NCBI GenBank assembly: GCA_018623785.1
Contig: JAAZVD010000013.1
Span: 1-14,433 of the forward strand
Direction: 5' to 3'
Origin: Bacteroidota bacterium
Lineage (GTDB): Bacteria; Bacteroidota; Rhodothermia; Rhodothermales; UBA10348
Length of the DNA stretch: 14,433 bases
Below, in pieces: positions 1-14,433 of the stretch (within the stretch, counting starts at the first letter, position 1; each line of letters starts with the position of its first letter). A model generated the notes under the pieces. That model saw only the letters and a program-made list of their open reading frames with translations. It was not told the DNA's origin and searched no databases. The position numbers and the translations under genes were made by a program.

Positions 1-425
1 ACTTTCTCAACGAAATGATGCTTCCGGGCGCCGGAGAGCTGACCGTGTTTGCCGCTGCCCTGGCTGCCTCGTGTTTCGGATTCCTGTGGTATAACGGATA
101 TCCGGCCTCTGTTTTCATGGGGGACACCGGGGCCCTGTCCCTTGGCGCCGCTGTGGGCACCATGACACTCATGATCAGAAAAGAGCTGCTGCTGCCATTG
201 CTGTGTGCCGTCTTTTTCTGGGAGACCCTCTCGGTCATCATTCAGACATCCTATTTCAAGTATACCAAGCGCAGGACGGGGGTAGGAAAACGTGTCTTCA
301 AGATGGCCCCGATCCATCACCATTATGAAGCCGAAGGATGGCATGAAGCCAAGATCGTACTCAGGTTCTGGCTGATTACGGCGGCGACGGTTATAGCGAC
401 CCTATTGGTCCTTCGCATACGATGA
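1..425 (+). CDS. mraY: MraY, phospho-N-acetylmuramoyl-pentapeptide transferase (3' part)
   Basis: MraY transfers phospho-MurNAc-pentapeptide from the UDP precursor to undecaprenyl phosphate in the inner membrane, making lipid I. Only the last 140 codons are present, reading from position 3; the start lies before the window. The family's late signatures are visible: the aspartate motif FMGDTGALSLG, the IRKELLLP segment, SYFKYTKRRTGVGKRVFKMAP and the histidine motif APIHHHYEAEGW, followed by the last transmembrane segment (about FWLITAATVIATLLVL). The C-terminus has the usual length and ends at TGA 423-425. An ATG overlaps this stop (422-424), the normal position for a coupled murD start. Here that frame closes after about 31 codons, so the expected murD reading frame is missing. 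Confidence 0.96.
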   Translation, partial: FLNEMMLPGAGELTVFAAALAASCFGFLWYNGYPASVFMGDTGALSLGAAVGTMTLMIRKELLLPLLCAVFFWETLSVIIQTSYFKYTKRRTGVGKRVFKMAPIHHHYEAEGWHEAKIVLRFWLITAATVIATLLVLRIR

Positions 426-501
426 TGTCCAAACATCCATACACGCCTCGCAGGGCCCGGATCATTCCCCTTTCGGAGATCCGGTTCCCTCAATTGATTC
501 C

Positions 502-1065
502 ATGGAGGAAATGCTGATGCAACCAAACGACCTGGTTCTGAGAGCCCGACACAATGTCTACAATTCGCTCGCGGCAGCGGTGGCGGCACGTGTCGTGGAA
601 GTCAGGAGCGACGTCATGAGGGAAAGCCTTCGATCCTTCGAAGGCATTCCACACCGCCTGGAGTATGTGCGCGACGTTGATGGGGTTCGCTATGTGAATG
701 ATGCAAAAGCGACCAATGTGAATGCGCTCTGGTACGCGTTGGAGCGATTCAGCGAGCCGGTGGTGCTGATTGTCGGAGATCCGGATACCGGCAGTGACTA
801 TCGAAAGTTGATCCCGCTCATCCGGGATCGGGTACGTGCCTTGATCCTGATCGGGGAGGCTGCAGACATGCTTCATGCCGAGCTCGGACCCCATGTAGCC
901 GATGCCGTTATCGCGGAGACGCTCACCGATGCGGTTCATTTGAGCCATCTGCTGGCACAGACCGGCGATGTCGTTCTCCTGTCGCCTGCCTGCTCATCGA
1001 TAGGCCAGTACAGCTGCTTCGAGGAGGTGGGAGAGCGGTTCAAACAACTCGTATCCAATCTTTGA
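502..1065 (+). CDS. murD: MurD remnant: C-terminal Mur ligase domain only
   Basis: Intact MurD (about 450 residues) adds D-Glu to UDP-MurNAc-L-Ala. This ORF has 187 codons and begins just before the C-terminal domain (LRARHNVYNSLAAAV, then GIPHRLEYVRDVDGVRYVN). The UDP-binding N-terminal domain and the central ATPase domain with its GTNGKT loop are absent, and only about 75 nt separate it from mraY. Motifs that remain have drifted: NDAKATN for the usual NDSKATN, GDPDTGSDY where GGxDKGxDY is typical (losing the lysine that contacts D-Glu in E. coli MurD, Lys348), and SPACSSIGQYSCFEEVG where SPACASFDxFxxFExRG is typical. It cannot be a working MurD alone. It may still be translated: GGAGG at 504-508 sits 8 nt before ATG 517, a better placed start than 502 or 511. 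It is either a pseudogene, a repurposed domain or an assembly deletion. Confidence 0.8.
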   Translation: MEEMLMQPNDLVLRARHNVYNSLAAAVAARVVEVRSDVMRESLRSFEGIPHRLEYVRDVDGVRYVNDAKATNVNALWYALERFSEPVVLIVGDPDTGSDYRKLIPLIRDRVRALILIGEAADMLHAELGPHVADAVIAETLTDAVHLSHLLAQTGDVVLLSPACSSIGQYSCFEEVGERFKQLVSNL

Positions 1066-1090: not shown

Positions 1091-2239
1091 ATGCAGGTCC
1101 TGACGTTACGTGGTCCCAATTTCGGCGCGGTGGATAAATACATCCTCTGGGCTATTCTGGTGTTGTGTGCCATGGGAATCGTGGCGGTTTACAGCGCTAT
1201 CGGATATCTGGCGGAAACCAAAGGCGGCGGCGATACCGAGGCCCTGCTGTTCAAGCACCTTTTTCGGGTGGTCCTTGCCCTGGGCATGATGGGTCTGTTT
1301 TCGATCATCAATTACCGGGTCCTGGCCCATTTCAGCCGGTACCTGCTCATTGGATCCATCGGCCTTTTGCTGGCGGTGCAGGTCATGGGTGTGGTAAGCG
1401 GCGGAGCGGCCCGGTGGCTGAATCTGGCCGGGGTCATGTTTCAGCCATCGGATCTGGCTAAAGTCTCCCTGGTCTTTTATGTGGCAACCCTGCTGGCCCA
1501 GAAGCAGGTCTACATTACGTCCTTTGCGCGGTCCTTTGCTCCCATCTTTCTGTGGATCATGATCACGGTAGCCGCTATCGGGATTTCGGATCTGTCCACC
1601 TCGGCTGTGGTACTGTGCGCGGTTCTGGTAATGTGTTTCGTAGCTCGAGTCAGCATGGTTCAGCTACTCATGGTGGGTCTGCTGGGCGCTGTTCTAGGCT
1701 ACGGCATGCTGGCCACCTCTCCGCAGCGAGCCGCCCGTCTCGAGGCCTACGTGGGTGTAAAGCTGTTTCCGCACACGGATGCTGCTTCCGTGTTCTCTTC
1801 CTCGGACGAGCAGTTCCAGGCCGAACAGGCCCGACTGGCTATTGCGCAGGGAGGCTTGCTGGGAGTCGGACCCGGGAAAAGTACCCAGAGGGACTGGCTG
1901 CCAGCCCCCTATAATGATTTCATTTTCGCCATCATTGCAGAGGAATACGGGATTCTCGGCGCCTTTGTGCTGCTTTTCCTGTTCGTGGTCATCCTCTACC
2001 GAGGCCTTCTGAAAGTAGCCCGAAGGGCACCCGATCCACTCGCCCTGTTCATGACGGTGGGTATCGTCGTGATGCTCACGCTCTACGGATTTGTGCATGC
2101 CGGCGTATCGGCCAATCTCCTGCCGGTAACGGGTCTGCCGTTGCCTTTTGTCTCCTACGGGGGTACATCGCTGCTTGCCAACGGCATCATGGCGGGCATT
2201 CTGCTCAATATTTCCCGTCAGGTGGATCCGATCGCATGA
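1091..2239 (+). CDS. ftsW: FtsW, septal peptidoglycan glycosyltransferase (SEDS family)
   Basis: FtsW is the SEDS-family polymerase that makes septal glycan strands from lipid II with its partner class B PBP. The 382-residue length is normal and the protein is almost entirely hydrophobic, with about ten transmembrane segments. SEDS signatures appear in order: GGAARWLNLAGVMFQPSDLAK, ISDLSTSAVVL (the usual xPDLGT region), GLLGVGPGKSTQRDWLPAP, YNDFIFAIIAEEYGILGAF with the conserved Asp region, and LPLPFVSYGGTSLLAN near the end. The first ATG after the murD remnant (1091, 25 nt downstream) gives a short cytoplasmic N-terminus before helix 1; no clear Shine-Dalgarno precedes it. It overlaps murG by ATGA. 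Placement between murD and murG supports FtsW rather than RodA. Confidence 0.96.
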   Translation: MQVLTLRGPNFGAVDKYILWAILVLCAMGIVAVYSAIGYLAETKGGGDTEALLFKHLFRVVLALGMMGLFSIINYRVLAHFSRYLLIGSIGLLLAVQVMGVVSGGAARWLNLAGVMFQPSDLAKVSLVFYVATLLAQKQVYITSFARSFAPIFLWIMITVAAIGISDLSTSAVVLCAVLVMCFVARVSMVQLLMVGLLGAVLGYGMLATSPQRAARLEAYVGVKLFPHTDAASVFSSSDEQFQAEQARLAIAQGGLLGVGPGKSTQRDWLPAPYNDFIFAIIAEEYGILGAFVLLFLFVVILYRGLLKVARRAPDPLALFMTVGIVVMLTLYGFVHAGVSANLLPVTGLPLPFVSYGGTSLLANGIMAGILLNISRQVDPIA

Positions 2240-3366
2240 CTCGTCAGGGCCACTCTATACGAACCGATGCCCCACGCATTCTAATGGTGGGTGGTGGGAC
2301 AGGAGGACATGCCTACCCCGCCATCGCCATCGCTGATGCTATCCGCGAGCTCTCTCCCATGGCGGTCATCGAGTTTGCCGGTTCTCGCAATGGCATCGAG
2401 TGGCGTATTGTGCCAGAGGCTGGCTATCCGATTCATCCGGTAGCGGTACGAGGTCTGCAGCGCCGACTGACATGGCGGAATGTGACCATGCCCCTCGTGG
2501 TTGCTCGGGGTCTTTTTCAAGCCCATGCCCTGATTCGCCACTTTGATGCCCATGTCGTGGTGGGAACGGGCGGATATGTGGCTTTGCCGCTGATCATGGC
2601 GGCTCGTTCCCTAAGCCGCCCCATTGTCTTGCAGGAGCAGAATGCGTTCATGGGACTCACAAACCGGATCGGGTTGCGATTCGCGGACCGCGTGCATGTG
2701 GCCTTCCAAGAAGCGATTCCCGCGGGTATGGGATCTCGGTGTCGGCTCACGGGCAATCCTGTTCGTGCATCACTGACTGTACCCAGCAGGGAGGAGGCTT
2801 TGGCTCATTTCAACCTGCATCAGGTGCAGCAGGTGGTCTTGATGACCGGCGGAAGCCTGGGTAGCCAGGCAATGAACGAGGCTATGGCTGCGGCTGTAGA
2901 CACCCTATTGGCCCGGGCTGGTACGGCCGTGATTTGGCAAACCGGAGATCGGTATTACGATCGCTTTGAAGAGAGCATACCCAAGCACGAGAATCTGCGT
3001 CTGATGCGGTATGTGAGCCGCATGGATATGGCCTACAATGCGGCCGATCTGGTGGTCTGTCGTGCCGGTGCGTCCACGTGCTCGGAGTTGATGCTTACAG
3101 GCAGGCCATCGCTACTGGTCCCATCGCCCAATGTGGCAGAAGATCATCAGACCAGTAATGCGCGCAGTATGCAAACGGCCGGCGCAGCGCAGCTGCTGCC
3201 GGAGACGCACTTGGCGGAGCACTTCGGGTCGACGGTCATGGGTCTGCTCGCGGACAAGCAACGCCTTGAAGACATGGGCCGCGAAGCCCGGCGGTTGGCT
3301 CGACCCGATGCCGCAGCTGATATCGGCCGGGATGTGCTATCGATGATCGAGCATCACGCGGAATGA
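2236..3366 (+). CDS. murG: MurG, lipid II synthase (UDP-GlcNAc transferase)
   Basis: MurG is a peripheral GT-B glycosyltransferase on the inner face of the membrane that adds GlcNAc to lipid I to give lipid II. The 376 residues match the family length. The N-terminal glycine loop GGGTGGHAYPAIAIA lies at residues 19-33, followed by FAGSRNGIEWRIVPEAGY, VVGTGGYVALP and QEQNAFMGLTNR. The C-terminal donor domain has GNPVR, MTGGSLGSQAMNEA and VCRAGASTCSELMLTGRPS around residue 276-291, then PSPNVAEDHQTSNA. Nothing essential appears missing. The start ATG overlaps the ftsW stop as ATGA, implying translational coupling. In relatives murC (sometimes with murB) usually follows; here ftsQ begins 4 nt after the stop. 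Confidence 0.97.
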   Translation: MTRQGHSIRTDAPRILMVGGGTGGHAYPAIAIADAIRELSPMAVIEFAGSRNGIEWRIVPEAGYPIHPVAVRGLQRRLTWRNVTMPLVVARGLFQAHALIRHFDAHVVVGTGGYVALPLIMAARSLSRPIVLQEQNAFMGLTNRIGLRFADRVHVAFQEAIPAGMGSRCRLTGNPVRASLTVPSREEALAHFNLHQVQQVVLMTGGSLGSQAMNEAMAAAVDTLLARAGTAVIWQTGDRYYDRFEESIPKHENLRLMRYVSRMDMAYNAADLVVCRAGASTCSELMLTGRPSLLVPSPNVAEDHQTSNARSMQTAGAAQLLPETHLAEHFGSTVMGLLADKQRLEDMGREARRLARPDAAADIGRDVLSMIEHHAE

Positions 3367-3370
3367 TCCC

Positions 3371-4159
3371 ATGAAGAAAGGCGATACCAACATCGGAATG
3401 CTGCTCATGGGGACGCTGCTCCTCCTTCTTCTTACGGCAGGGGGATGGTTGGCGTGGCAATGGGCCGGTCAGGTAACGGTTCGGGACGTACGCATAGACG
3501 GTCAGGTGAATGTTACCGTGCAGGAGGTCAGGGAATTATTGCGTGTGGACACGGGAGCCGTAATGCTCGAGATGAATGCGGCGCTGCTCGAGGACCGCGT
3601 GGTGCGCCATCCTTGGGTGGAGCAGGTGGACGTGGCTCGCCTGCCCTCGGGTGTGCTGAACGTACGCATCGAAGAGCGGACCCCCGTGGCGCTCTTGATG
3701 ACGCCCGACGGCCGCATGGACTACTGGGCCGATAGCGAAGGCTGGCGACTGCCCCTTACCGATCGTGCCCGCTACGACGTGCCCCTGGTGTTCGCCGTGC
3801 GGGAAGCATGGCACCCCATGCGCCCCGTGCAGCACGAGCCCACCCGCCGACTGTTGCATGCGCTTGGATCGACGAGTGCACGCCTTGACGCCCTGTTTTC
3901 AGAATTCGTGTGGACCGACGAGGGCTGGACTGTTCAGGTGACGCCAGTTCCGCCACATGGGAGCATTCCCGTGGTGCTCGGACAGGATGGGTTCGCCTCC
4001 AAATTCGACCTGTTGCTGGCCTTCTGGGATCAAGAAGTCCTGCAGCATGCCAACACCGTGTATGACCGTGTAGATCTCCGTTTTGACAGCCAAGTCGTCG
4101 TAGAGGAGCGCCCCAGGGAGGGGTATGCCATCGACACAACCAACAACAACAATGAGTGA
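3371..4159 (+). CDS. ftsQ: FtsQ/DivIB-like division protein
   Basis: FtsQ is a bitopic inner membrane divisome protein that links early and late division proteins and recruits FtsB/FtsL in well studied bacteria. The 262-residue product has a short cytoplasmic tail, one transmembrane helix (about residues 10-32, rich in Leu) and a POTRA domain at about residues 35-110, starting VTVRDVRIDGQVNVTVQEV and containing HPWVEQVDVARLPSGVLNV then IEERTPVALL. This arrangement is the FtsQ hallmark; the C-terminal beta domain is more divergent, as is usual. The gene follows murG by 4 nt and its 3' end, a CAA/AAC-rich stretch coding for TTNNNNE, overlaps the ftsA start. Identity rests on the POTRA pattern plus position before ftsA. 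Confidence 0.92.
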   Translation: MKKGDTNIGMLLMGTLLLLLLTAGGWLAWQWAGQVTVRDVRIDGQVNVTVQEVRELLRVDTGAVMLEMNAALLEDRVVRHPWVEQVDVARLPSGVLNVRIEERTPVALLMTPDGRMDYWADSEGWRLPLTDRARYDVPLVFAVREAWHPMRPVQHEPTRRLLHALGSTSARLDALFSEFVWTDEGWTVQVTPVPPHGSIPVVLGQDGFASKFDLLLAFWDQEVLQHANTVYDRVDLRFDSQVVVEERPREGYAIDTTNNNNE

Positions 4160-5414
4160 CAAAATCGTCGTCGGACTTGACATCGGAACCACCAAGGTGT
4201 GTGCCGTTGTCGCGACATCAGATGAGCTGGATCGTGTCCAGGTCCTCGGGGTCGGCGTAGCTGAATCCGAGGGGCTCAACCGGGGCGTGGTGGTCAATAT
4301 CGACAAGACGGTGGCTGCCGTGCGTGAAGCCATCGAAGAAGCCGAGCGCATGGCTGGGGTAACCGTGCGCAATGTCATTGTGGGCATTGCAGGCGATCAC
4401 GTTCAAAGCTTCCAATCGCGGGGCGTCATCACTATCTCGGGTCGGGATGGGGAGATTACGGAAGCCGACGTACAGCGGCTCCTCGAGGACACGACACATG
4501 TAGCCATGCCGGCCGATCGTGAGATCCTGCACGTCATCCCGCAGGAATTCATCGTCGATGGGCAGGATGGCGTGGCCGACCCCATCGGGATGAGCGGGGT
4601 ACGGCTCGAGGCCAATGTGCACATCATCACGGGCTTGGTGTCGGCTGCTAAAAACATCTACCGATGTGTGGAGAAGGCAGGGTACGAAGTAGCGGACATT
4701 GTCCTTGAGCCGCTCGGATCATCGTTTGCCGTGCTGCATCAGGACGAGAAGGAAGTCGGTGTAGCGCTGATCGACATTGGCGGCGGCACAACCGACATTG
4801 CCGTCTTCGAGGATAACACCATCCGTCATACCGCCGTCGTAGCCGTGGCTGGCAACAAGGTCACGGACGATATCCGTAAAGGCCTCGGCGTCATGCGGGA
4901 TCAGGCCGAGGCGCTCAAGTGCGAGTTCGGCGTGGCCCTGGCCGAGATGGCTCCCGAGGAGGAGATTGCCATCCCGGGCGTGGGCGGTCGTAACGAAAAA
5001 CGGGTCGGCCGCTCGACGCTGGCCCAGATCATCCAACCGCGGCTCGAGGAGATCCTCGAAATTGCCGCCATTGAAATCAAACGAAGTGGATTCTCCCGTC
5101 ATCTCTCCGCAGGAGCGGTGCTGACAGGTGGAGGATCCATGACAACAGGAACGGCCGAACTGGCCGCCGAAATTTTGGGAATGGATGCCAGGATCGGAAG
5201 GCCGATGGGTCTGACTGCCGGGTTGGTCCAGGAAGTATCTGATCCCAAATATGCTACCGGTGTGGGGCTCGTGCTCTATGGACTCCGCCCGGAAATGATA
5301 GGAAACACCCCATTTCGCACAAATCATCTGGACGCCTCGGATCCCACCATGGGTGGGGATAACGTGGTCCGGAAGATCAAGAATGCCATGATGGGGTGGT
5401 TCAATGAACTCTAA
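4152..5414 (+). CDS. ftsA: FtsA, actin-like Z-ring membrane anchor
   Basis: FtsA is an actin-fold ATPase that tethers FtsZ filaments to the inner membrane and helps activate septal synthesis. Visible signatures: phosphate-1 motif GLDIGTTKVCAVV near the N-terminus, the FtsA-specific 1C/SHS2 region (about residues 85-165, including HVIPQEFIVDG and GLVSAAKNIYRCVEKAGYE), phosphate-2 motif DIGGGTTD at 208-215, an adenosine-type motif AVLTGGGSMTTG, and a C-terminal amphipathic helix VRKIKNAMMGWFNEL for membrane binding. I chose ATG 4152 because family members start directly at xDKIVVGLDIGTTK; it overlaps the ftsQ stop by 8 nt and follows a CAA-rich leader. An in-frame ATG at 4125 preceded by a purine-rich AGGGAGG (4115-4121) would add nine residues and is a real alternative. 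Confidence 0.97.
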   Translation: MSDKIVVGLDIGTTKVCAVVATSDELDRVQVLGVGVAESEGLNRGVVVNIDKTVAAVREAIEEAERMAGVTVRNVIVGIAGDHVQSFQSRGVITISGRDGEITEADVQRLLEDTTHVAMPADREILHVIPQEFIVDGQDGVADPIGMSGVRLEANVHIITGLVSAAKNIYRCVEKAGYEVADIVLEPLGSSFAVLHQDEKEVGVALIDIGGGTTDIAVFEDNTIRHTAVVAVAGNKVTDDIRKGLGVMRDQAEALKCEFGVALAEMAPEEEIAIPGVGGRNEKRVGRSTLAQIIQPRLEEILEIAAIEIKRSGFSRHLSAGAVLTGGGSMTTGTAELAAEILGMDARIGRPMGLTAGLVQEVSDPKYATGVGLVLYGLRPEMIGNTPFRTNHLDASDPTMGGDNVVRKIKNAMMGWFNEL

Positions 5415-5563: not shown

Positions 5564-6829
5564 ATGGATAAGAATCTATTCAGCAGCCATTTCGCGTTTG
5601 ACGACGCTGAAAATGAAGAGGCCAAAATCTGCGTCGTAGGCGTGGGTGGCGGCGGCGGTAATGCCGTCAACAATATGATCAGCAAGGGAATTACCGGCGT
5701 TGACTTCTACGCCATCAACACCGATTCCCAAGCCTTGGATGCCAACCTGGCGCCTTTCAAGATTCAGGCCGGACGCGGTTTGACGAAGGGATTGGGTGCA
5801 GGTGCACGTCCCGGTGTTGGTGCCGAGGCCATCGAGGAGAGCCGGCATGAACTGGAAGAAGCCCTGCGTGGCTTCGACATGGTCTTCATCACTGCCGGCA
5901 TGGGTGGAGGTACTGGAACAGGGGGCGCACCCATCGTGGCGGCCATCTGCAAGGACCTGGGAATCCTGTCCGTTGCCATTGTCACCAAACCATTCATGTG
6001 CGAGGGTCCACGGCGTTCCAAGTCGGCTGATGCGGGCATCGAACTTCTGAAGCAGAACGTCGATACCCTGATCATCATTCCCAACGAGCGCCTGCTCGAC
6101 ATTGCAGGCGAGGACACGTCCATGCTGGAAGCCTTCGGCAAGGCTGACGACGTGCTCTACAATGCCACACGAGGGATTTCCGACCTGATTACGGTTCATG
6201 GTCTGATCAACCTGGACTTTGCCGACGTGAAGACTACGATGCGCAGTGGGGGCACGGCGCTCATGGGCGCAGCTACTGCCGCTGGCGAAAATCGGGCCGA
6301 GCGCGCTGCGCGCGAGGCCCTCTCGAGTCCGCTCCTGGATGGCTTGACCATCCTTGGCGCCCGCAACGTGCTGGTCAATATTACGGCCGGTCCGAGCCTG
6401 GGTATCCGCGAGGCCACACAAGCTACCGCCATCATTCAGGAGGAGGCCGGCGACGATGTCGAGGTCATCTTCGGTACGGTCATTGACGATGCCATGGGGG
6501 AGGAACTGCGTATCACGGTTATTGCCACGGGGTTCGACAAGGCTGCGGCCTCCAAGCCACCGCGCAAGCCCCGGGTTGAACTCGAGGTTCCTACCTACAC
6601 CCAGAACCCGATTCCCTACAAGGGCGAAGAAGGGCTCAAAACGCTGGATACACCAGCCTACGAGCGCCGAGGCTCCTCGCTGCTGGTCGGTTCGGGCGAC
6701 GGCGATGGCGAGTCCCCGGAATCATCGACCCGGGTACGACTCCTCAAGCGTGACGATATATCGCGTCATGACGAGGACGCAGGATCGGATTCCGAAGTGC
6801 CGGCTTTCCTTCGAAAAATGATGGACTGA
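5564..6829 (+). CDS. ftsZ: FtsZ, tubulin-like Z-ring GTPase
   Basis: FtsZ polymerises with GTP into the cytokinetic ring. The 421-residue product contains the nucleotide loop GGGGGNAVNNM (28-38), the tubulin signature GGGTGTG (114-120), RGISDLITVHGLINLDFADV with the catalytic T7 loop NLDFADVK (216-223), then a charged variable linker (about 330-405) and a conserved C-terminal peptide VPAFLRKMMD that would bind FtsA. The T6-T7 segment reads ITVHG where many bacteria have ITxPG. A strong GGAGGAA at 5554-5560 fixes the start. The 149-nt gap after ftsA, unlike the tight spacing upstream, leaves room for extra regulation; it contains a perfect 10-bp palindrome CACCATGGTG (5454-5463), but I see no convincing promoter there. 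It is the last dcw gene before the terminator. Confidence 0.98.
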   Translation: MDKNLFSSHFAFDDAENEEAKICVVGVGGGGGNAVNNMISKGITGVDFYAINTDSQALDANLAPFKIQAGRGLTKGLGAGARPGVGAEAIEESRHELEEALRGFDMVFITAGMGGGTGTGGAPIVAAICKDLGILSVAIVTKPFMCEGPRRSKSADAGIELLKQNVDTLIIIPNERLLDIAGEDTSMLEAFGKADDVLYNATRGISDLITVHGLINLDFADVKTTMRSGGTALMGAATAAGENRAERAAREALSSPLLDGLTILGARNVLVNITAGPSLGIREATQATAIIQEEAGDDVEVIFGTVIDDAMGEELRITVIATGFDKAAASKPPRKPRVELEVPTYTQNPIPYKGEEGLKTLDTPAYERRGSSLLVGSGDGDGESPESSTRVRLLKRDDISRHDEDAGSDSEVPAFLRKMMD

Positions 6830-7137: not shown

Positions 7138-7165
7138 TTGCGGCAAGCAGAAATAGCCTATTTTG
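7138..7165 (+). promoter_or_regulatory. Candidate promoter for the glycosidase-like membrane gene
   Basis: TTG at 7138-7140 and TATTTTG at 7159-7165 resemble the Bacteroidota -33 TTG and -7 TAnnTTTG elements, though the -7 box is one T short. The pair lies after the terminator and about 50 nt before ATG 7214. It would place the transcription start downstream of the alternative TTG start codon at 7163, favouring ATG 7214. This is pattern matching only. Confidence 0.3.
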
Positions 7166-7213
7166 CGGAATGGCCATCGCCCTTTCCTTCTTCGCCTTTT
7201 GACACCTCGAGGC

Positions 7214-8875
7214 ATGACTCCTGTGGGATTTCCCCATCGCTTCATCGTGATCCTTCTGATGGGCTGGCTGTGTGCGTACCCGGCCATGGCCCAATCGAAG
7301 GAGGGCCCCGTTATCGGTGTGGACTGGGCGGCACCCGATGATTTCAGAGATGCCGCCAGCGATCTCGTGGAAATAGCCGAAGTCGGCTTTTCTGCCGTTC
7401 GCATGCCTCCGGTATTCGACGAAGAATTCTATACCCTTGCCGACAGGCTGGGTCTGACCCTGTATATCGAACTTCCGCTCGTTCAGCGTTCTGTGCGGGA
7501 ATTGCGCACCGATGTGGCCGGCATTGATTCGTTGTTGGGATTGGTTCTTGATGCCGGTCGCGGACATGTCGCAGCCGGTCCCATCGGCATTACCCGCCTC
7601 TCGGATACGCGATCGCCGGGAGGGTGTGACGCCATACGGCAGGTCGCACAGCGCATCCAGGCTGCCGGCCGTCAGGCCTACTATACATCGTCTTTCTCCC
7701 ATTCTGATCGCTGTCGTAATACCGTCGACTTCGTTTTGCTCGATGTCCTGACTCCGTATGGTACGTCGCAGACCGTGGTGTCCTCGGTCGATTTGGCAGC
7801 GCAATCGGGGTCCGGACGCATGGGCATCACGGGCCTTGGCGCGGCGGTGTCGCAACCGCAGGCGCAAGGCTGGCTCCACGAGGGCAGTGCAACGGCGCAG
7901 GCACGCTTCATGGAATCGTCCCTCAACCAGGTCGCCTACTCTAACCTGTCCCATGTATTCGTGCACCGGTGGCGTGACCAACTCCTGGATACCTCCGTGT
8001 TGCCCGATCCGTGGGGTCGCAACTACGGACTTTACACGTCAGAATCCGACCCCCGTCCCGCACTCCAGGTCGTACGGGGCATACTCCGTGGTCTTCAGGA
8101 TACGTTTGCTTTCGACGCGGGGCAGCCCGCCGATCCGGGACGCCCGTGGTTTCCGGCACTGGGCTGGCTCATGATTACACTGACTGCGTTTCTCTACGCT
8201 GGAAGTCCCCGTTTTCGGACCATGATTCCACGGTATTTCTTTGCCCATGGGTTTTTCCGGAATGCGGTGCGAGAGGCACGCGAGGTCTTGCCACTGACGT
8301 CGACGGCCATCCTTACGGTCATTGGTCTCTCGGTCGGTCTGATCGCAACGCTTGTCATAACGGGGCTCAAGGATCTGCCCCTTAGTATCCATTGGTATCG
8401 GTTACTCAGCCCTGGATCGCGCACTTCCTTGACGGCCATCATGAATGAGCCCTTGATCCTTACCGTCCTGATTGGCAGTACAACGCTTCTTTTTACTTCC
8501 CTCTGGATGGGGTGCTGGATGGTCGCAGCGAGCCGCCGAGCGCGCTTGCTCCCGAGTCAGGCCCTCATGCTTGCCTCATGGCCCCGTTGGCAGGTCCTGC
8601 TGCTCTTATTGATCGCAATGACGCTGGAGGCTACTCCGGGCGTGCCACTCTGGGCGCTGCTGTGCTTGAGCAGTGTCTGGTTTGGAACCGCCTTGTGGGC
8701 AACCTTTCGTACATCGTACGATCTCTACAAGGTCACCGGAATATCTCCCTTGGCGGCAAGTCTGGTTTGGCTGATGCACCCCCTCGTCATGGCAGTCTTC
8801 CTGCTCGTTGGCTGGAGCTTGATGCACTGGGACGAGGTCCGCTTTGCATGGCATTTGTTGATGGCAGCCTGGTAG
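7214..8875 (+). CDS. Secreted glycosidase-like TIM barrel fused to a multi-pass membrane domain
   Basis: Not a recognised named gene. The 553-residue product starts with a signal peptide (hydrophobic FIVILLMGWLCAYPAMA, cleavage near AMA|QS). Residues about 30-290 resemble the TIM barrel of GH2-type glycosidases: GFSAVRMPPVFDEEFYTLAD, then ADRLGLTLYIELPL (76-89), and near the end YGLYTSESDPRPALQVVRG, the usual barrel end. The strand that normally carries the nucleophile (ITEYGA type) reads ITGLGA at 205-210, and I see no NE acid/base motif, so catalysis is doubtful. From about residue 312 to 540 there are roughly six transmembrane segments, recalling a Yip1-like domain. The barrel would be periplasmic and the helices in the inner membrane. 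An upstream in-frame TTG (7163) would add 17 residues ahead of the signal peptide and is less likely. It converges on the next gene with an 18-nt gap. Confidence 0.8.
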   Translation: MTPVGFPHRFIVILLMGWLCAYPAMAQSKEGPVIGVDWAAPDDFRDAASDLVEIAEVGFSAVRMPPVFDEEFYTLADRLGLTLYIELPLVQRSVRELRTDVAGIDSLLGLVLDAGRGHVAAGPIGITRLSDTRSPGGCDAIRQVAQRIQAAGRQAYYTSSFSHSDRCRNTVDFVLLDVLTPYGTSQTVVSSVDLAAQSGSGRMGITGLGAAVSQPQAQGWLHEGSATAQARFMESSLNQVAYSNLSHVFVHRWRDQLLDTSVLPDPWGRNYGLYTSESDPRPALQVVRGILRGLQDTFAFDAGQPADPGRPWFPALGWLMITLTAFLYAGSPRFRTMIPRYFFAHGFFRNAVREAREVLPLTSTAILTVIGLSVGLIATLVITGLKDLPLSIHWYRLLSPGSRTSLTAIMNEPLILTVLIGSTTLLFTSLWMGCWMVAASRRARLLPSQALMLASWPRWQVLLLLLIAMTLEATPGVPLWALLCLSSVWFGTALWATFRTSYDLYKVTGISPLAASLVWLMHPLVMAVFLLVGWSLMHWDEVRFAWHLLMAAW

Positions 8876-12165: not shown

Positions 12166-12183
12166 TCGTTCGCTCTTTGTCAA
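12156..12183 (-). promoter_or_regulatory. Candidate divergent promoter for the tolC-type operon
   Basis: On the minus strand a perfect TTGACA (12183-12178) is followed 16 nt later by TTACCC (12161-12156), a poor -10 element. It overlaps the candidate plus-strand -10 box. It is weak evidence, listed because it is the only such match upstream of the minus-strand cluster. Confidence 0.2.
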
Positions 12184-12234
12184 TCGTTCGACGGACGCGA
12201 TGCCCGGGAGAGGCTCCCGGCACCGCAGGGAATC

Positions 12235-12439
12235 CGGACCGAAACCGCGCTTTACGGTATTTTTTACGCCGTATGAAGGTGTTTCGGAGTAGCCGGAGCT
12301 GTGCCCGCAACTGTACCTAACGGGTCATGCCTCACGGATCGATTCTACCACTGATGTTTTGTGTTGCCATCGGGGCGCATCGGGAAGGTAGTTCGAGAGG
12401 GGACATGGCATAACCGTTATAAGCCAGGAGACCGGTCCG
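12235..12439 (+). promoter_or_regulatory. Cobalamin (B12) riboswitch aptamer
   Basis: The RNA binds adenosyl- or other cobalamins and usually switches off B12 uptake genes when cobalamin is plentiful. The conserved core CCGGAGCTG with GCCCGCAACTGTA, a CACTGATG segment, the ATCGGGAAGG stretch and the B12 box AAGCCAGGAGACC appear in the canonical order. CGGACCG (12235-12241) is exactly complementary to CGGTCCG (12433-12439) and closes the domain as stem P1. The 205-nt size is typical. It lies upstream of a BtuB-like receptor, the classic target, and a terminator hairpin follows at 12554, giving an expression platform. Confidence 0.95.
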
Positions 12440-12455
12440 ACGAATGGTGTCCACT

Positions 12456-12532: not shown

Positions 12533-12592
12533 ATGGGTCTTTTGTGGTTGATCGGGTCTGTACCTCGCAGAGGAACAGGCCCTTTTTTGTGA
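12533..12592 (+). CDS. Possible 19-codon leader ORF coupled to the receptor
   Basis: ATG 12533 opens a 19-codon frame (MGLLWLIGSVPRRGTGPFL) that reads through the terminator hairpin and stops at TGA 12590-12592. That stop overlaps the receptor's GTG start as GTGA, the usual geometry of translational coupling. A purine-rich GGGAG sits immediately before the ATG, probably too close to be a good SD. A ribosome here would melt the hairpin. The ORF is too short to be supported by coding statistics and may be chance. Confidence 0.2.
   Translation: MGLLWLIGSVPRRGTGPFL
12554..12588 (+). terminator. Riboswitch expression-platform terminator, also covering the SD
   Basis: GGGTCTGT (12554-12561) pairs with ACAGGCCC (12575-12582), with one G-U pair. 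Above an A-A mismatch, CCTC (12563-12566) pairs with GAGG (12570-12573) around a GCA loop. Six T (12583-12588) follow, and the receptor GTG begins at the very next base. The purine-rich AGAGGAA (12569-12575), the likeliest SD, is locked in the 3' arm, so folding could block both transcription and translation. Confidence 0.85.
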
Positions 12593-14433
12593 ATCGTATT
12601 TCTCTCGGATTGGCTGCCGGCCTCGCTACCGCGATGGCGTCCATTTTCGCACTGCCGAGCCGCGCCCAAGAGGCGGACTCGGTACGCGTCCTGGATGCCA
12701 TAGTGATCGAGGAGCAGCGCGATCATGAGCGTGCCTTCCCAGGCGCACTCACGCTGCGTCTGGACGCCCTCTCGGCGCAGGCTGCACCCGATGCCGCCCG
12801 GCTTTTGGACCACGTTCCGGGAATGTATGTTCGTCGCTCGGGGACAACAGGCGCCGCGTTGGCTTCGTTTCGAGGCCTTGGGGCGGCATCAACCCGGATA
12901 GAGTTCGAGGGCATACGGCTGGTTGATCCCGCCACAGGCTCCTTCGATCTTTCTCTCTTCCCACCGGCCCTCATCGGTTCGCTCTCCGTCATGTCCGGCA
13001 CCGCTGCCGGTTCGGTTCCCGGTGGCCGTATTGCGCTCGGAGTCCAGGAGGTATCTTCGGCCCGCGCATCGTTTCGAGGAGGAGCATTCGGATACCGTGA
13101 GGTGGCAGCCCGGGCGGGTCAGGCCGGCACGCATTCATCCATCTCGGCGCTTGTCTCGGTTTCTGATTCTGATGGCTCGTTTCGATACCGACATCCGGTA
13201 TGGATGGGGCATCCTGTCGTTCGGCGAGAAGGAGCTGATCGCAGACATGCCGCAGCTCTTGTTCATGTGCGTCGTGAGACACGGCCTGCTGCATCGCCCG
13301 GAAGCAGCCAGCGCGGAGCAGGGGCCGTATTTCGCGCCATGGTGCTTGCTACCCACGTTGACCGCTCTCTGCCGCCACTTTCCATTTCCTCGGCGGCGCC
13401 CGCTTCGCAGCAAGATGACTTGCTGCTGGCAGGCGTTCAAGTTCAGACGCAGTGGTCGGGTATGCCGGTTCGCGCTAGCCTCTCCACGACCCATAGCCGC
13501 TTTCAATACCGGCATCCTTCCCGGGATACCACGCGGGTAGTATTGGGGCAAATAGCGTTGCGCGGTCGCATCGACCGGGTGCTCTCCGCCCGCTGGACGG
13601 CGGCTGTCGAGCCTTCGCTGGCCCTCAGTCGTACGGCCACGGAGCAGGAGCATGACATCATTGATGGGGCGCTACGCATATCCATGGGTCATGTCCGGGA
13701 AGCGTGGATGGTAGGGGCCTTTCTCGACGCCCGGCATCGATCAACCCGTACATCGGCGCGCCCTTTATCCGAGACGGCTGCCACCCTGGCACCCGGTCTG
13801 TGGTGGACCCATGCGCTGCGTCCCGGACTGGAGTCCCGGGTAGCCGTTGCCCGGGTTCTGCGACTCCCGACCCTCAATGAGCGCTACTGGGTACCCGGAG
13901 GGAATCCTGCGTTGCGAGCCGAACGCGGCATGCAAGCCGAGTGGATGCTCTCCTACAGCCCCGGGGAAGCCGTCCACCTCCGCGTGGTCGCATTTCTGAG
14001 CCGCCTCAAGGAGCGCATCGTATGGCGACCCATCTATCTGGACGCATCCCGTCAAATCTGGACACCGGACAATGTTGCCCTGGTTGAAGGCCGCGGTCTC
14101 GAGGCCTACGTGCATTGGTCGCCTTTCCCGTCAACCAACGTGACGATCTCCGGAACGCGGCGGACGCAGCGGGATCGCTCCAACCCTTCGGCAGCCTCGT
14201 ACGGTCATCAGCTTCGTTTTGTAGCACCGTGGTCCATCCGTGGGACGCTCGAGTGGCAACACGAGTCTATGGGATTTTTCGGGTCATGGCATCACACTGC
14301 GCGTCGCTACACGGCAACCGATGGCTCTCTGTGGATGCCGGCATACCGGGTAGTCGATGCCGGTATGGTATGGCACGCCGCTGAGGATCGCTTTGGGCTG
14401 GATATCCGGCTGACAGCCTCGAATCTGTTCAAC
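12589..14433 (+). CDS. btuB: TonB-dependent outer membrane receptor, BtuB-like (3' end missing)
   Basis: This would take up cobalamin across the outer membrane using TonB energy. The frame is open for 615 codons from GTG 12589 to the last base with no stop, so the C-terminus is outside the window. It begins with a signal peptide (ISLGLAAGLATAMASIFA, cleavage near SRA|QE), a possible TonB box DAIVIEE, then a plug domain: LLDHVPGMYVRRSG, ASFRGLGAASTRIEFEGIRL and LFPPALIGSLSVMSG. The remainder is beta-barrel with LRLPTLNERYWVPGGNPAL, a signature of BtuB-like receptors, and it breaks off in a typical late strand ending TASNLFN. The upstream cobalamin riboswitch supports B12 as substrate. GTG was chosen because it opens the signal peptide and directly follows the terminator; ATG 12634 would cut into that signal. 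Shorter ORFs in other frames are shadows. Confidence 0.9.
   Translation, partial: MNRISLGLAAGLATAMASIFALPSRAQEADSVRVLDAIVIEEQRDHERAFPGALTLRLDALSAQAAPDAARLLDHVPGMYVRRSGTTGAALASFRGLGAASTRIEFEGIRLVDPATGSFDLSLFPPALIGSLSVMSGTAAGSVPGGRIALGVQEVSSARASFRGGAFGYREVAARAGQAGTHSSISALVSVSDSDGSFRYRHPVWMGHPVVRREGADRRHAAALVHVRRETRPAASPGSSQRGAGAVFRAMVLATHVDRSLPPLSISSAAPASQQDDLLLAGVQVQTQWSGMPVRASLSTTHSRFQYRHPSRDTTRVVLGQIALRGRIDRVLSARWTAAVEPSLALSRTATEQEHDIIDGALRISMGHVREAWMVGAFLDARHRSTRTSARPLSETAATLAPGLWWTHALRPGLESRVAVARVLRLPTLNERYWVPGGNPALRAERGMQAEWMLSYSPGEAVHLRVVAFLSRLKERIVWRPIYLDASRQIWTPDNVALVEGRGLEAYVHWSPFPSTNVTISGTRRTQRDRSNPSAASYGHQLRFVAPWSIRGTLEWQHESMGFFGSWHHTARRYTATDGSLWMPAYRVVDAGMVWHAAEDRFGLDIRLTASNLFN

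Follow-up and report, generated by a model that had tools for sequence, protein, structure and literature searches.

We found that two draft genomes of one Rhodothermales genus lack all three Mur ligase genes of the dcw cluster in working form: murC is gone, murE survives as a stub, and murD is cut down to its C-terminal domain (hereafter murDc), which evolves under strong purifying selection except in two relaxed loops of the former active site. MurC, MurD and MurE are regarded as essential and are antibiotic targets. The initial annotation of this DNA described a truncated murD in an otherwise intact dcw cluster, which is not the case, and what looked like one broken gene becomes a lost three-step pathway. 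The truncation is real, occurs in two species and is part of a wider loss than was noted at first; salvage of murein fragments, although unproven, is our best guess as to how the wall might still be made.

The window, i.e., the whole 14,433-nucleotide stretch analysed (G000:C302:1-14433), belongs to a draft genome of 1.87 Mb that is 62.6% complete (hereafter G000). In order, it holds a partial mraY, a 187-codon ORF (502-1065), ftsW, murG, ftsQ, ftsA and ftsZ:

3..425, + strand: mraY, C-terminal 140 codons, the contig beginning within the gene (TIGR00445, E 9.6e-50, profile positions 194-321 of 321)
426..501, + strand: 76-nt spacer at the former murD start, barely alignable with the spacer of the relative G004 (alignment; tblastn)
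502..1065, + strand: murDc, a stand-alone protein made up of the last stretch of the MurD central domain and the C-terminal domain; start at ATG 502, or else at ATG 517
502..651, + strand: murDc codons 1-50, from the end of the MurD central domain; compared with G004, 21 silent differences and a single amino-acid-changing one
778..795, + strand: relaxed loop of the D-Glu site, codons 93-98 (DPDTGS), with Thr at the position of E. coli Lys348
1000..1041, + strand: second relaxed loop of the D-Glu site, codons 167-180, after SPACSS
1091..2239, + strand: ftsW (top match TIGR02614, 280 bits, under its cut-off of 337.5)
2236..3366, + strand: murG (TIGR01133, 270 bits, above cut-off)
3367..3370, + strand: murG-ftsQ junction, the site of murC in relatives; no murC trace
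3371..4159, + strand: ftsQ (POTRA_1, E 1e-10)
4125..5414, + strand: ftsA (TIGR01174, 421 bits)
5564..6829, + strand: ftsZ (TIGR00065, 401 bits)

Beyond ftsZ, a 570-aa ORF (7163-8875) had no Pfam or NCBIfam match, and large frames also lie 3' of ftsZ in L049, L054 and L056. Further along, a Cobalamin riboswitch (RF00174, 58.9 bits; 12176-12454) is located just 5' of a TonB-dependent receptor frame (12544-14433).

Truncation of murD and loss of murC and murE

murDc (187 aa) matches the murD model TIGR01087 only at profile positions 259-440 of 441 and begins 76 nt after the mraY stop (425), confirming the initial claim that murD is cut to its C-terminal domain 3' of mraY. It also matches Pfam Mur_ligase_C (PF02875; 58.5 bits, cut-off 28.4), and a Foldseek search with its predicted structure returned MurD crystal structures as the best matches (E 5.4e-13). 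The remnant, which comprises the C-terminal domain and ~45 residues from the end of the central domain, is thus predicted to keep the Rossmann-like fold of the Mur ligase C-terminal domain. A tblastn search with the complete MurDs of G001 and G005 detected nothing of the lost portion between mraY and position 490. Some 270-280 codons are gone, close to the ~270 estimated initially, as complete MurDs of the genus carry 272-282 codons 5' of the remnant point (counted by taking the last Met before the VLGAARSG-type motif as the start). The three-domain architecture of a functional MurD is therefore lacking at this locus, with the first domain and the greater part of the second absent nearby. Translation may start at ATG 502, where the similarity to G004 starts and with which the 187-aa length of the two closest protein clusters agrees, rather than at ATG 517; the Shine-Dalgarno-like GGAGG (504-508) cited initially in favour of ATG 517 is present, and the only such motif precedes that codon.

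The nearest relative found, a "Rhodothermales bacterium" (G004; JAFMNH010000018.1; L015, locus G004:C157; 81% identical in the murDc ORF), carries the same truncation, with similarity beginning at the same methionine and a DNA identity of 77%. Additionally, the best two matches among ~5.8 billion clustered proteins were stand-alone 187-aa proteins, P0001 (97% identical; 16 members, of which the window's own protein is probably one) and P0002 (81%; 26 members). The next three clusters (P0003, P0004 and P0005) have the usual MurD motifs and seem to stem from complete murD genes that were cut short or broken in frame. A truncation common to two separate species and to clusters of 16 and 26 members is not a sequencing gap, as the initial annotation had argued. 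A collapsed or chimeric contig might be suspected in any draft metagenome assembly, but we give it almost no credence here, because the same breakpoint region recurs in a separate species, the protein clusters repeat it, and murC and most of murE are lost in both species as well. MurD scored above cut-off in 38 of the 41 genomes searched, G000, G004 and G006 being the exceptions. In a tree of four dcw proteins, the window's species and G004 were separated from the four other genus members with full support; S68A, S82R, D178E, Q179R and the loss of Lys348 are common to the two, which share murDc by descent.

The loss extends to both other ligases of the cluster. No trace of murC was found in the window's genome between murG (stop 3366) and ftsQ (3371), and the gene is missing from the same junction in G004; G001, G002, G003 and G005 all have MurC above cut-off there (4/4, 494-516 bits), as well as MurD and MurE above cut-off. 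On contig C217 of G000 (L061), ftsI is followed by ~76 codons that are 45% identical to the start of G001 MurE, and then by mraY; a stub in the same place in G004 is 38% identical. Of the 27 family genomes, 23 had MurE above cut-off; the exceptions were G000, G004, G006 and G010, the last of which has murE split across two contig ends. Stops or a lost frame in the murE stub were ruled out, the frame being open in both species (120 and 163 codons); it is the amino-acid constraint that was lost instead. We also discounted G006 as a further case of the loss, since its absences fall at a contig break: its ftsZ contig begins inside an apparent murC end (86 aa, too short for a family-model match at E 1e-12). 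The ligase loss therefore rests on two species, both represented by draft MAGs, of which G000 is 62.6% complete and G004, at 96%, can miss about 4%, a gap that could be larger for a moved copy on a plasmid or on an island of odd composition.

Selection on the murD remnant and its neighbours

The unusual residues pointed out initially in three conserved motifs are real: murDc has NDAKATN, GDPDTGSDY and SPACSSIGQY, and all four complete MurDs of the same genus have NDSKATN, GGRDKGNDY and SPAC(S/A)S(F/L)DMF. A complete murD with the remnant's residues, which had been named as the counter-case, is absent among these four. In E. coli MurD, Lys348, Phe422, Thr321 and Ser415 grip the carboxylates of D-Glu-like inhibitors, according to a published account (PMC3527612). 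By alignment to the E. coli numbering, Lys348 is lost from the second motif (Thr in the window, Ser in G004), Thr321 and Ser415 are retained in both, and Phe422 is retained in the window and replaced by Ser in G004. The set of ligand residues expected of a MurD is thus incomplete.

Between G000 and G004, murDc has 85 silent differences over 139.2 sites and 46 amino-acid-changing differences over 421.8 sites (Fisher p = 1.3e-30, omega 0.093), without any indel or stop. By segment, omega was 0.008 for codons 1-50, 0.124 for codons 51-187 (64 silent differences over 103.2 sites, 45 changing over 307.8) and 0.103 for codons 99-166, compared with 0.061 (51-187) and 0.112 (99-166) in the intact pair G001-G005. 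In contrast, the two loops that cover the positions of E. coli Lys348 and Phe422 gave 1.38 (codons 93-98) and 0.76 (codons 167-180), values that are rough because the loops are short; in the intact pair, no amino acid differs in the first loop and 2 differ in the second. Among 136 positions invariant in the four intact MurDs, 14 are altered in both species, and the two loops account for 9 of these. The loss of constraint proposed initially consequently holds for the two active-site loops only, strong purifying selection acting on the rest of murDc.

Since the murE stub is open too, an intact frame is little proof by itself, and it is the slow amino-acid change of murDc that makes the case. As a control, the 53 stub codons 5' of a conserved block (see below) gave pS 0.61, pN 0.51 and 23% amino-acid identity; at equal silent divergence, murDc has pN 0.11 and 81% identity. 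The stub has lost its protein-level constraint. Judging from these rates, murDc is a selected protein and not junk, its enzyme site apparently given up and the remainder of the domain kept; the contrast with the decaying stub, together with the relaxed loops, points to retention as a non-catalytic protein. Residues 1-50 are the most conserved and yet were modelled with low confidence on their own (pLDDT block means of 43-49, against 69-95 for residues 51-160 and 171-187, and 51 for 161-170), which suggests that they may contact a partner protein.

The same two genomes gave omega values of 0.027 for mraY, 0.057 for ftsW, 0.104 for murG, 0.191 for ftsQ, 0.013 for ftsA and 0.045 for ftsZ, all rough because silent sites are near saturation (G002 was excluded from the mraY comparison, where a contig end left just 58-61 mismatched codons aligned). 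Low omega across the cluster and the retained wall genes suggest that wall synthesis continues. A lineage losing murein altogether, with the cluster in early decay, would account for three missing ligases and for the drifted D-Glu-site residues of murDc; we consider this very unlikely, since mraY, murG, ftsW, ftsA and ftsZ are constrained at a silent divergence of ~0.7 to 1.5, MurB and Mpl are present in both drafts, and MurF is present in G004.

A conserved block and hairpin in murE

The highest silent-site conservation in murE over 28 genomes (z 3.1) falls on a block at the codons for HLFIDKAVxNGA, where silent-site pair identity was 0.68 against 0.39 expected. G010 and G042 were left out of the codon alignment as partial, and the 28-genome profile excludes seven genomes without the block, which show no peak at this place when run apart. 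The TTGACAARGCTGTTNNNAACGGAGC pattern occurs once each in 20 of 99 loci, from at least 16 genomes (four loci being second genome copies), and all of the loci inspected lie in murE. As for a phage link, viral_contigs yielded a single exact match to the block, located in a coding frame other than murE.

Directly 3' of the block is a hairpin; block and hairpin together occupy L061:3141-3243 (C217 of G000) and L056:17733-17835, and are found in murE of 23 of the 35 Rhodothermales genomes tested, the hairpin letters varying while the pairing stays. Relative to protein-preserving codon shuffles, the mean fold z was -4.16 in the 23 genomes with the block (20/23 below -2.5), with no clear signal despite the block in G011 (0.2), G036 (-1.1) and G032 (-1.9), and 0.21 in the 12 genomes without it. 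Rfam gave no match at the element (sources L061, L053 and the window). RNAalifold found no shared hairpin on the element (alignment A2, which omits L075, L078, L092 and L095, i.e., 4 of 27 element sequences), a result attributable to arms that vary in length and are out of register; hairpins were therefore tested genome by genome.

The murE element outlived murE itself. A 40-nt stretch of the block, chosen from the G000/G004 alignment for its identity, is identical between these two species, in which murE is dead, and is matched by the intact relatives G001, G005, G002 and G003 at 38, 38, 36 and 35 of 40 positions. The hairpin is long and near perfect in the two dead-murE species (z -9.0 and -10.3 versus dinucleotide shuffles). 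These patterns are good evidence that block and hairpin form a nucleic-acid element, which would explain the survival of the stub; a promoter or a processing site for mraY and downstream genes are candidate roles and the obvious ones to test.

By analogy, murDc might be kept for a DNA or RNA control element of ftsW-murG, much as the stub seems to be kept for mraY. The strongest silent-site conservation in murD over 33 genomes (z 3.3) is indeed at LALGRHNYNSLA, in the 5' part of the remnant (window 502-560). However, no excess of RNA structure was detected in 11 windows around the murDc start (mean z -0.8 to 1.0), and codons 51-187 combine ordinary silent divergence with few amino-acid changes, indicating that the protein is selected there, which makes a control element a rather improbable reason for the retention of murDc as a whole.

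Remaining wall pathway and comparison with known systems

No MurC, MurD or MurE was found anywhere in the drafts of G004 (96% complete) or G000 (62.6%). In G004, the three Mur_ligase_M proteins are MurF, Mpl and FolC (3/3). The central Mur ligase domain occurs once in G000 (Mpl), three times in G006 (MurF, Mpl and FolC), and in 5, 6, 6 and 8 copies in G001, G002, G003 and G005, with MurF and Mpl also being best models in G002 and G003. MurF was not found in the 62.6% complete draft of G000. The assignment of Mpl relies on TIGR01081, which scored 376.5 bits in G000 and 380 bits in G004 (cut-off 388.7) compared with 331.9 and 325.4 bits for the MurC model; it is the best model, yet just below cut-off, for Mpl of G006, G003 and G002 too. 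Mpl has not undergone a burst of change, with 4 positions altered in both species among those invariant in three other genomes compared.

MurB was above cut-off in all seven genus genomes and Ddl in five of seven, G000 falling just under (241.5 vs 245.65 bits) and G004 having only a 63-bit fragment at positions 109-345, close to where its contig begins. An AmpG-like permease, a candidate for the uptake of muropeptides that is far under the family cut-off (177.5 bits vs 350 in G004), was matched in 6/7 genus genomes, with no match in the 62.6% complete draft of G000. An Asp/Glu-family racemase is retained in G004, and D-Glu need not be dispensable there. We considered MurI loss as an independent sign of tripeptide dependence and rejected it as uninformative, since MurI (TIGR00067) is under cut-off in 7/7 genus genomes, even where the set of Mur ligases is complete; the weak matches in five of the seven were read as the Asp/Glu-type racemase. 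MurF of this genus carries ~200 partly hydrophobic residues before the MurF match (L042:737-2410, L045:2229-3923, L048:1066-2739), as if it were membrane-tethered. Because MurF sits outside the dcw cluster in this genus, losing exactly the three ligases that Mpl could replace is the same as losing exactly the ligases of the dcw cluster.

Mpl is described as joining the whole tripeptide to UDP-MurNAc and as favouring it strongly, at 260 per min versus 0.7 for L-Ala (PMC3060825). Attaching the whole tripeptide would replace just the MurC, MurD and MurE steps, given free tripeptide; with its weak activity on L-Ala, Mpl could not stand in for MurD and MurE. We therefore propose that, in the ancestor of G000 and G004, three separate deletions would have taken MurC, MurD and MurE from the dcw cluster and left mraY, ftsW and murG, situated between the lost genes. 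UDP-MurNAc would come from the ordinary route (MurB being present), Mpl may add ready-made L-Ala-gamma-D-Glu-mDAP tripeptide in one step, as predicted from its sequence, and MurF would then add D-Ala-D-Ala, with MraY and MurG completing the remainder. The tripeptide would derive from recycled and scavenged murein, net growth needing an outside supply as well as recycling. murDc, if translated, would be poor at binding D-glutamate and kept in a non-catalytic role, most likely as a subunit on which MurG and the membrane-side machinery dock or assemble. In Thermotoga, MurG has MurD, MurE and MurF as binding partners (PMC6420597), and a MurG-linked scaffold is perhaps a fair guess, but no more. 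Taken as a whole, from the deletions to the scaffold, this account is our preferred one, although we hold it slightly short of an even chance.

The main rival holds that MurC, MurD and MurE were replaced by copies outside the bins, on a plasmid, an island or a horizontally acquired cassette, and that the dcw copies then decayed, with a side role for murDc. In its favour, neither draft is complete, binning frequently drops contigs that are mobile or of odd composition, the wall pathway otherwise seems functional, and G001, G002, G003 and G005 retain the three ligases. Nevertheless, the 96% complete G004 has no Mur_ligase_M proteins beyond MurF, Mpl and FolC, and the absence would have to recur in two species; unbinned copies thus appear unlikely to us, if still deserving serious attention. 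As to Mpl-based salvage, no report combining loss of MurC, MurD and MurE with retention of Mpl and MurF was found among the matches listed in searches of the open-access literature (most subscription papers lying outside this scope). The size of G004 (~2.6 Mb) is ordinary, and it is therefore probably not a host-bound symbiont. It is possible, although we lean towards doubt, that a lineage with an ordinary-size genome gave up stem peptide synthesis for Mpl and MurF salvage and that the D-Glu domain of MurD is now a separate non-catalytic assembly protein. If this is true, it would show that Mpl, a recycling enzyme, is able to support net wall synthesis in nature; the lineage would define a dependence on the murein fragments of neighbours, and the retained dead domain would offer a natural test of a non-enzymatic MurD role.

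Compared with known systems, murDc resembles the MurD C-terminal domain in sequence (TIGR01087 259-440) and predicted fold (Foldseek, MurD structures). It differs from MurD in having neither the UDP-MurNAc nor the ATP domain, in the loss of Lys348, and in standing alone at 187 aa. Mpl recycling in E. coli and Psychrobacter (PMC3060825) is alike in that Mpl loads the tripeptide before MurF acts; in those bacteria it is a dispensable side route beside MurC, MurD and MurE, whereas our two species may have no other. In some aphids, the Buchnera symbionts have no murC, murE and/or murF, and a D-Ala wall label is still taken up by one strain of this kind (PMC9116674; PMC10591338). The Aphidini-aphid Buchnera (PMC9116674) likewise lost Mur ligases and still makes a D-Ala-labelled wall. 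Buchnera, however, is an insect endosymbiont, with MurF among its losses and MurD not named; our lineage keeps MurF and Mpl, and G004 has a genome of ~2.6 Mb. Tannerella forsythia has no sugar steps (murA, murB) and needs outside MurNAc (PMC5790795). It is similar as a member of the Bacteroidetes relying on external murein parts, but it lacks the murA and murB sugar steps, whereas our lineage keeps MurB and has lost the peptide steps.
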